Origin: Magnetococcales bacterium
GTDB taxonomy: Bacteria; Pseudomonadota; Magnetococcia; Magnetococcales; JADFWU01
Direction of reading: 5' to 3'
DNA length: 26,099 nucleotides
Assembly (NCBI GenBank): GCA_015234045.1
Contig: JADFWU010000044.1
Span: 1-26,099 of the forward strand
Position 1 is the stretch's first letter. Every line of letters begins with the position of its first letter. A program made the translations under genes and the position numbers. This document shows positions 3,029-26,099 of this stretch, piece by piece. The notes below the pieces were generated by a model. The model had not been told where the DNA came from, searched no databases, and saw only the letters and a program-made list of their open reading frames with translations.

Positions 3029-3134
3029 GGGAGTTACACAGTTGCCAGTTGATACACGCATTAGGACGTGAACCCGTCATTCCCACTTTCACGGGAATGA
3101 CGACTACCAATACTCATTCAACTGCGTAACGCCT
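3029..3134. repeat. R3 dispersed inverted-repeat element, copy 1
   Basis: About 106 bp. The right end reads, on the reverse strand, AGGCGTTACGCAGTTGAATG, almost the same as the left end of the copy at 8110. The left end (GGAGTTACACAGTTG) is a diverged partner. An internal palindrome CGTCATTCCC...GGGAATGACG is shared with copy 2. No coding capacity. It begins 6 nt after the terminator T-tract. Confidence 0.75.
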
Positions 3135-13902: not shown

Positions 13903-14063
13903 TATTGTCATTTCGATCCGAAATTAGAAAATAAATCACAACCTGAGTGGAAGCCCTGGTGATGTTTTTGCGCCGCTTTTGATATGCGAAGCAGATCATC
14001 AGAGCAAAAATATCACCAGGATTGGAACGACTGACTGTTCAAATTTTAGACGAAACCCCCATA
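13903..14063. repeat. R1 dispersed hairpin element (MITE-like), copy A
   Basis: About 161 bp. Ends are TATTGTCATTTCG (left) and, reading in from the right on the other strand, TATGGGGGTTTCGTCTAAAA. The inner parts AAATTTGA(A)CA also match between the two ends of the family. The centre is a large hairpin: CCTGGTGATGTTTTTGC (13955-13971) pairs with 14004-14020 (one wobble), enclosing a smaller TGAT/TGC-GAA-GCA/ATCA stem. The first 101 bp differ from copy B at 6 positions. No reading frame. Confidence 0.85.
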
Positions 14064-14100
14064 AAAAAACGAACACCCTTTTCAGGATGTCCGTTTTTTT
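14063..14100. terminator. Bidirectional intrinsic terminator
   Basis: Seven A (14063-14069), a stem of about 9-10 bp with loop TTTTCA around 14079-14084, and seven T (14094-14100). It serves the GT4 gene on the plus strand and the Gln/Pro-rich gene on the minus strand. Confidence 0.85.
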
Positions 14101-14923: not shown

Positions 14924-15034
14924 TATAGTGATTTTGACAAAAAATTAGACAATGGTGCCCAACCTGAGTAGAAACCCCAATGGCACTTAGGGCCGAAACA
15001 GTTGGCTGTTCAAATTTTAGACGAAACCCCTATA
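14924..15034. repeat. R1 dispersed hairpin element, copy C
   Basis: About 111 bp, TATAGTGATTTTG at the left and, inverted, TATAGGGGTTTCGTCTAAAA at the right. It shares CCAACCTGAGT and GCTGTTCAAATTTTAGACGA with copy A, but the central hairpin is different and shorter (GGTGCC...GGCAC). It lies about 75 nt upstream of the M18 peptidase start. Confidence 0.8.
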
Positions 15035-15107: not shown

Positions 15108-16427
15108 ATGAACCAATCCAGCGGACTCGTTCAAAGCACCATGACCCGGCTACAAGCCGCACCCACACCGTTTCATGCTGTTGCGGTGATGTCAGAGGCA
15201 CTGAGTCAGTCAGGCTTCAAACGTCTTGAAGAGACCGACAACTGGCAACTGATTCCAGGCCAGGGCTACTATGTAATCCGTGATTTCGGCTCTCTCATCG
15301 CCTTTGTCGCACCGCCACCAGGAAAACCACTCCCCGTCCGAATGGCTGGCACACACACTGACAGTCCAGTGCTTAAACTCAAACCTAATGCACTGAAGAA
15401 AAAACAGAAACTCTGGACTGCTGATGTCCAACTTTACGGCGGCATTCTTCTGAGCACCTGGTTTGACCGGGATCTCTCCCTGGCCGGACTGGTGACCGGT
15501 CTGGACAAGGGTGGAGATACCCACCATCAATTGGTGGATCTTAAAGAACCTCTGGCTGTACTGCCCAATCTGGCCATCCACCTTAACAGAGGTGTCAATG
15601 AGGGCGTTAAGATCAATACGCACGAACAGATGAATCCCGTGCTGTTTCCGGTTCTGGAAGGAGAAGAAGCGAATAGCGACAACCCCCTTACTCAACGTCT
15701 GTTAAGCCAATTAGCTGAAGACAATCCCAACCAGCCTGTCATCACAGCCATATTGGATTGGGAGCTTTGCTTTTATGATCTGCAACCACCTGCGTTGATT
15801 GGCCTGGATCGTCAATGGCTCACGTCAGCCCGTCTGGATAATCTACTGAGCTGCTTTGTCGGGCTTGAAGCACTGCTCAACACATCAAACGATGAAATCA
15901 ATACCGACTTCATACCAATGCTTGCCTGTTTCAACCATGAAGAGGTAGGCAGCACCTCTGCCACTGGCGCGGCCAGTAACTTTGCTGAATCGGTCCTGCA
16001 CCGCATTTTTCCCGATCCAACCACCATGGCACGCGCCATTGCTGCCTCGTGGATGATTTCCATAGATAACGCCCATGCCTGCCATCCAAACTATCCCGCT
16101 ACACAAGACGAACAGCACTGCCCGGACATTAACGGCGGTCCTGTCATCAAAACCAATGCCAATCAACGCTACGCAACAACGACCTTATCCAGCGGTTTTT
16201 TCAAAGGATTATGCCACCAAGCTGGCGTTCCGGTGCAGAACTTTACCGTACGGGCTGACATGCCCTGCGGTAGCACCATTGGTCCGATGCTCTCCTCTCG
16301 CCTCGGCATGAAGACTGTTGATATCGGTGTGCCCACCTGGGCAATGCACTCCATTCGAGAAGTCGCTGGTGTGAATGATCTGGACCATCTGTACAAGGTA
16401 TTGATCCGCTTTTTTCACCATACTTGA
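15108..16427 (+). CDS. apeB: M18-family aminopeptidase (aspartyl aminopeptidase type)
   Basis: A 439-residue cytoplasmic dinuclear-zinc exopeptidase of normal family length. Metal/catalytic blocks are all present: MAGTHTDSP (H83), SARLDN (D244), NHEEVGS (E278/E279), SIDNAHACHPN (D320), ADMPCGSTIGP and the last ligand His in WAMHSIRE. M18 enzymes form large tetrahedral assemblies and remove N-terminal acidic or neutral residues from peptides. The ATG at 15108 has no clear Shine-Dalgarno, but the family N-terminus (LQAAPTPFHAVAVMSEAL) follows directly. R1 copy C lies just upstream and may have altered its promoter. The apeB symbol rests on family resemblance. Confidence 0.92.
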   Translation: MNQSSGLVQSTMTRLQAAPTPFHAVAVMSEALSQSGFKRLEETDNWQLIPGQGYYVIRDFGSLIAFVAPPPGKPLPVRMAGTHTDSPVLKLKPNALKKKQKLWTADVQLYGGILLSTWFDRDLSLAGLVTGLDKGGDTHHQLVDLKEPLAVLPNLAIHLNRGVNEGVKINTHEQMNPVLFPVLEGEEANSDNPLTQRLLSQLAEDNPNQPVITAILDWELCFYDLQPPALIGLDRQWLTSARLDNLLSCFVGLEALLNTSNDEINTDFIPMLACFNHEEVGSTSATGAASNFAESVLHRIFPDPTTMARAIAASWMISIDNAHACHPNYPATQDEQHCPDINGGPVIKTNANQRYATTTLSSGFFKGLCHQAGVPVQNFTVRADMPCGSTIGPMLSSRLGMKTVDIGVPTWAMHSIREVAGVNDLDHLYKVLIRFFHHT

Positions 16428-21836: not shown

Positions 21837-21914
21837 TACAGTGATCTCAAAATAAAAAATAACACTCAACCAGAGCCGGAACGGCTGACTGTTTTTTTAG
21901 ACGAAATCACTATA
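21837..21914. repeat. R1 dispersed hairpin element, copy D (short)
   Basis: 78 bp, the shortest copy. Left TACAGTGATCTC, right (inverted) TATAGTGATTTCGTCTAAAA. It keeps CTCAACCAGAG and GGCTGACTGTT of the longer copies and has a tiny CCG-GAA-CGG hairpin at the centre. It lies between the divergent dehydrogenase and fusion genes. Confidence 0.75.
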
Positions 21915-25998: not shown

Positions 25999-26099
25999 TA
26001 TAGTCATTTCGATCCAAAATTTGACAATAAATCACAACCTGAGTGTAAGTCCTGGTGATGTTTTTGCGCCGCTTTTGATATGCGAAGCAGATCATCAGA
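25999..26099. repeat. R1 dispersed hairpin element, copy B (cut by window end)
   Basis: TATAGTCATTTCGATCC onwards, 101 bp visible, differing from copy A (13903-14003) at 6 positions. The window ends inside the central hairpin, so the right half is not visible. Confidence 0.85.

Follow-up and report, generated by a model that had tools for sequence, protein, structure and literature searches.

The closest described case to the repeat reported here is RUP of Streptococcus pneumoniae with its partner element IS630-Spn1 (PMC2229807, PMC3049150, PMC10969869). In ISY100, an element of the IS630/Tc1-mariner group, the transposase alone suffices and its HTH domain binds the inverted repeats (PMC2170065); a TA target that is duplicated upon insertion is the hallmark of IS630/Tc1-mariner transposition (PMC2170065). 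The repeat family considered here is found in the genome of an uncultured Magnetococcales bacterium (3.65 Mb in 117 contigs) and, compared by description, shares with RUP an abundance of around 100 short intergenic copies, ends that resemble an IS630-family element of the same genome, TA targets, a folded structure and nesting in other repeats. However, RUP is about 107 bp long, whereas the family here has units of 161 or 87 bp, a core hairpin with a 20-bp stem and tandem arrays, and resides in Magnetococcales. It has the TA target and TA duplication in common with ISY100 but, unlike ISY100, lacks a transposase of its own and so depends on action in trans. The many size variants and truncated copies of a single family recall the bacterial MITEs Chunjie and QMITE2 (PMC10969869), which occur in other hosts and are likened by description. 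We consider it very likely that the repeat is a MITE family of the IS630 type. Its ends are homologous to the ends of an IS630-family element that the same genome carries in several copies, and it would be an internally deleted derivative moved in trans.

A sequence-only reading of the window (the whole stretch of DNA analysed, which is contig C56) had proposed four copies of a hairpin-forming element, and all four were recovered with ends exactly as claimed (Table 1). The fourth is incomplete because the contig ends inside it. The reading had also assigned two shared blocks to all four copies; the right-hand block (CTGTTCAAATTTTAGACGAAA) indeed occurs twice in the window against 0.01 expected, but in the 78-bp copy both blocks are present only in degenerate form (CAACCAGAGC, GACTGTTTTTTTAGACGA). 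The further claim that each complete copy keeps a central hairpin did not hold: the 161-bp class folds far better than shuffles, but the 111-bp copy folds no better than its own shuffles, and the 78-bp copy folds weakly, retaining just its ends and a stem of 4–5 bp. The 111-bp copy lies upstream of an aminopeptidase-like open reading frame at 15108, and the 78-bp copy sits immediately upstream of a minus-strand gene resembling that of UDP-glucose dehydrogenase. An aminopeptidase of the window has its best matches in Magnetococcales MAGs (50–54% identity), which, with the best plasmid match of an IS630 relic described below, points to this order as the source. A search of the window against Rfam families gave no match above the gathering score. 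Directly after the first copy, and separate from it, stands a terminator-like hairpin with a T-run (14063–14100; 17-nt arms, 4-nt loop).

Table 1. Copies of the repeat in the window and the hairpin of the complete copy
Feature	Position	Strand	Evidence
Complete 161-bp copy, long class	13903..14063	+	100% to itself, 89-95% to 44 other full-length copies; position in alignment
Hairpin at the centre of the complete copy, with arms 13955-13971 and 14004-14020	13955..14020	+	17-nt arms, 94% complementary, 32-nt loop; family consensus z -8.65
111-bp copy, divergent interior, without stable hairpin	14924..15034	+	profile hits 2-58 and 115-159; fold z 0.05
78-bp degenerate copy, short (hairpin-less) class	21837..21914	+	profile hit 107-159 at 21864-21913; exact TATAGTGATTTCG end at 21902-21914
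Copy of the 161-bp class cut by contig end, first 101 bp present	25999..26099	+	profile hit 2-99; window is contig C56, 26,099 bp

Genome-wide, at least 45 full-length matches to the 161-bp copy were found at 89–100% identity, itself included and with 40 of 176 candidates scored. Allowing up to three mismatches, there are 121 occurrences of the 21-bp right-end block (reversed control, 0); the core block is present 111 times. The listed places of the repeat resolve into at least 147 separate loci, so that the whole-genome search suggested by the sequence-only reading did return further copies in abundance; a profile was built from 140 stretches taken around the listed places. Twenty-five pieces of the repeat stand at contig ends and eleven IS630 ends lie near contig ends, and contigs appear to overlap the IS and MITE ends by about 77 bases; since the assembly breaks at the MITE and the IS, the count may deviate from the actual number of copies. 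A search of 60 relatives, 47 from the same order and 13 from the same phylum, yielded no copy of the repeat; among these relatives, the source genome is the sole member of its family. Likewise, an exact-pattern scan for the 21-bp right-end block in contigs of other genomes and viral contigs, a set that may leave out the source genome or very near ones, returned nothing, and plasmids and phages searched in distant mode contained no copy.

The 161-bp form is the commonest and has sharp edges: among copies with both ends, 68 measure about 161 bp, ten 83–87 bp and a few are of odd lengths. In an alignment of 71 copies of about 161 bp, conservation ends abruptly at TATAG... and ...CTATA, the columns just outside holding about 0–0.4 bits against 1–2 bits for most columns inside. 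The unit is bounded by terminal inverted repeats of TATAGTnATTTCG type, its left and right ends being identical at 12 of the first 13 bp and partly alike on to bp 31, and at 161 or 83–87 bp it is too short to hold a transposase gene. Single sites that are nearly random, with neighbours more than 90% conserved, occur at position 7 on the left, which is partly linked to the left-end subtype, and at positions 154–158 on the right.

Complete copies do not share their flanking sequences, the exceptions being brief segments of a second interspersed repeat family and, at the start of a contig, one identical flank of 71 bp; the shared flanking sequence that ordinary duplication of larger segments would leave, and that the sequence-only reading had named as the contrary outcome, is thus absent as a rule. 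Such segmental duplications, carrying the repeat along, would fit the tandem arrays and two neighbouring copies on C22 that are 97.5% identical, but the unrelated flanks refute them as a general account and the sharp borders in 71 copies also stand against them, which leaves this explanation scarcely credible. Copies lie mostly between genes: the insertion point falls in an open frame of at least 100 codons at 19 of 75 joined sites compared to 90 of 150 points 200 bp away, and none of eight long joined frames that were read was a clear gene in two halves. Two copies are nested within others. At one locus (L130, C63:10569), a complete copy reading TAGTC...GCACTA interrupts another as ...GCAAAAG-TA-[TAG...CTA]-TA-TCACCAGG, whereas the uninterrupted family reads GCAAAAATATCACCAGG at this site; the TA on both sides is a target-site duplication. 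At the other (L155, on C93), a copy starts at a TA within another copy. Given the unrelated flanks, the intergenic placement and the nesting at TA, the family has spread by transposition with TA as its target, in the manner of IS630/Tc1 elements.

Several repeat arrangements were noted alongside. One tandem array (L071, C29:108379-110009) contains five 161-bp units head to tail at C29:108821-109625, the two middle units being identical; elsewhere, three partial right ends recur at a spacing of about 35 bp (L122, C58:21212-22182), and two partial left ends, 60 bp apart, lie beside a third copy (L066, C29:67795-68809). The second interspersed repeat family (TTAGGmGTTACGCArTTGCCGGTTGAAACAGGC...) often abuts or truncates MITE copies and is present in the flanks of L107, L121, L156, L163, L169, L171, L138 and others; in the window its 12-mer GTTACGCAGTTG or the complement occurs at 3119 and 8113. 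At four loci (L046, L143, L146 and L165), MITE copies are broken off at or near GCGCCGCTT and are joined to, or lie near, a common chain of small hairpins (GCCGCTTCGCGGC, GCCTTCGGC, GCCCAAAGGGC).

A search with the DDE_3 domain gave a single hit, an IS630 relic on C90 (right end TATAGTCATTTC) whose best plasmid match is from Ca. Magnetococcus massalia. The suggestion that this relic is the sole transposase of the genome was overturned by a search with the IS630 HTH domain, which revealed, where contig C77 ends, the 5' portion of an IS630-family element (PF01710, E 1e-24). Its left end (TATAGTCATTCCAATCTAAAATCTAACAGTG) is found at seven contig ends, C77 included, at 96–100% identity, and its right end (TATAGTCATTCCAACTCAGAACTGAACA) at four contig ends, the signature of a recent IS whose several copies were collapsed during assembly. 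The N-terminal 87 residues of its transposase are read without a stop, the 3' end is present at four contig ends and the middle is missing from the assembly. The comparison of the repeat with IS elements of its own genome, as proposed beforehand, thus led to a multi-copy element in which both ends match. On the left, 25 of 31 positions agree ungapped and the gapped score was reached by none of 20,000 shuffles; for the inner part of this match (14/18), again none of 20,000 shuffles did as well. On the right the match is weaker, 10/13 plus 10/18 or 20 of 31, although the TGAACA block lies in register. Past the first 13 bp, the right end of the repeat is matched about as well by the left end of the IS as by its right end, so that derivation from the two ends is well supported on the left only. 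The earlier proposal of Tc1/IS630-like mobilisation, made from the TA at the ends, is supported by the two nested copies and by a junction on C86 at which the right end of the IS starts precisely at the TA that terminates a repeat copy, and the sequence matches suggest that an IS630 transposase mobilised the repeat in trans.

Since the ends of the IS and the repeat are similar (80% on the left and about 65% on the right) and not identical, the transposase that built the family may have come from a relative of the present IS. It is accordingly possible, though on balance unlikely, that a transposase other than the C77 type mobilised the MITE, for the C90 relic, known by its right end, and a second relic on C20, known by its left end, show that other IS630-type elements have passed through the genome. 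Yet these elements and that on C77 are all of IS630 type, and the C77-type IS matches the left end best and is alone among them in being present in several copies. The C20 relic (L275, C20:50694-50834) belongs to another IS630 subgroup, and its end (TATAGTAGGTC) is less like the MITE ends. In an order-wide search, IS630 relatives were found in eight other Magnetococcales genomes, in two of which comparable TATAGC-type ends lie beside the gene (L173, local score 30; L176, local score 32).

The 161-bp form folds at -66.3 kcal/mol compared to -33.7 kcal/mol for shuffles. This strong hairpin, together with the placement between genes, would also fit a REP/BIME-like intergenic palindrome with a host role (mRNA end, attenuation or nucleoid binding) that had multiplied by other means. 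The core is less diverged (about 5%) than the outermost 10 bp (14–19%), and there is a slight surplus of compensatory stem changes (six vs two in shuffles). However, the stem is more diverged than the loop (6.1% vs 3.3%) and the number of broken pairs (83) comes close to that in shuffles (88.9), and covariation in the stem thus gives no strong sign of selection on pairing. Moreover, the hairpin-less 87-bp class has multiplied too, and a REP/BIME-like origin leaves the TA insertion and the IS-matching ends unexplained; we regard it as very improbable. That the palindromic core has a function of its own, such as enhancing transposition or acting as an RNA hairpin on nearby transcripts, is an improbable idea; if true, it would account for a divergence lower than that of the outer parts.

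The 87-bp form is the 161-bp form minus the core with the central hairpin, and its junction, CAACC(A/T)GGGCTGG, is located at the near-repeat ACCTG/ACCAG that brackets the hairpin. The two left-end types (G..G..A and C..A..T at positions 7, 18 and 24) each occur in both length classes, which suggests that the palindrome was lost repeatedly; repeated gain of the palindrome, or conversion, is a possible alternative source of the two classes. On average, copies are 93% identical to the consensus, the closest pair being that on C22, in comparison to 96–100% among the IS left ends. Most of the copying and movement of the MITE is therefore old, or at least not very recent, whereas the IS appears to be recent.

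For the IS630-type MITE family, we envisage that an internally deleted IS630-type element which kept its left and right ends gave rise to the unit, and that an IS630 transposase, acting by cut and paste on TA targets with TA duplication, would have bound the MITE ends and moved the unit in trans. The palindromic core would have been gained or kept in one lineage and may then have been lost repeatedly at the flanking near-repeat. Tandem arrays probably arose later, either through unequal recombination or through insertions into the TA at the end of a unit. A host function is unnecessary to explain the family. With ends matching a multi-copy IS630 of the same genome, the family is abundant and had not been seen before, yet it is an unexceptional example of a mobile element of known type. 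It changes no principle. A literature search found no paper naming both MITE and Magnetococcales, and the pair adds a well-documented MITE and parent IS for this order. The MITE and IS explain part of the assembly fragmentation of the genome, and the pair could serve for work on how bacterial MITEs form length classes, nest and grow into arrays.
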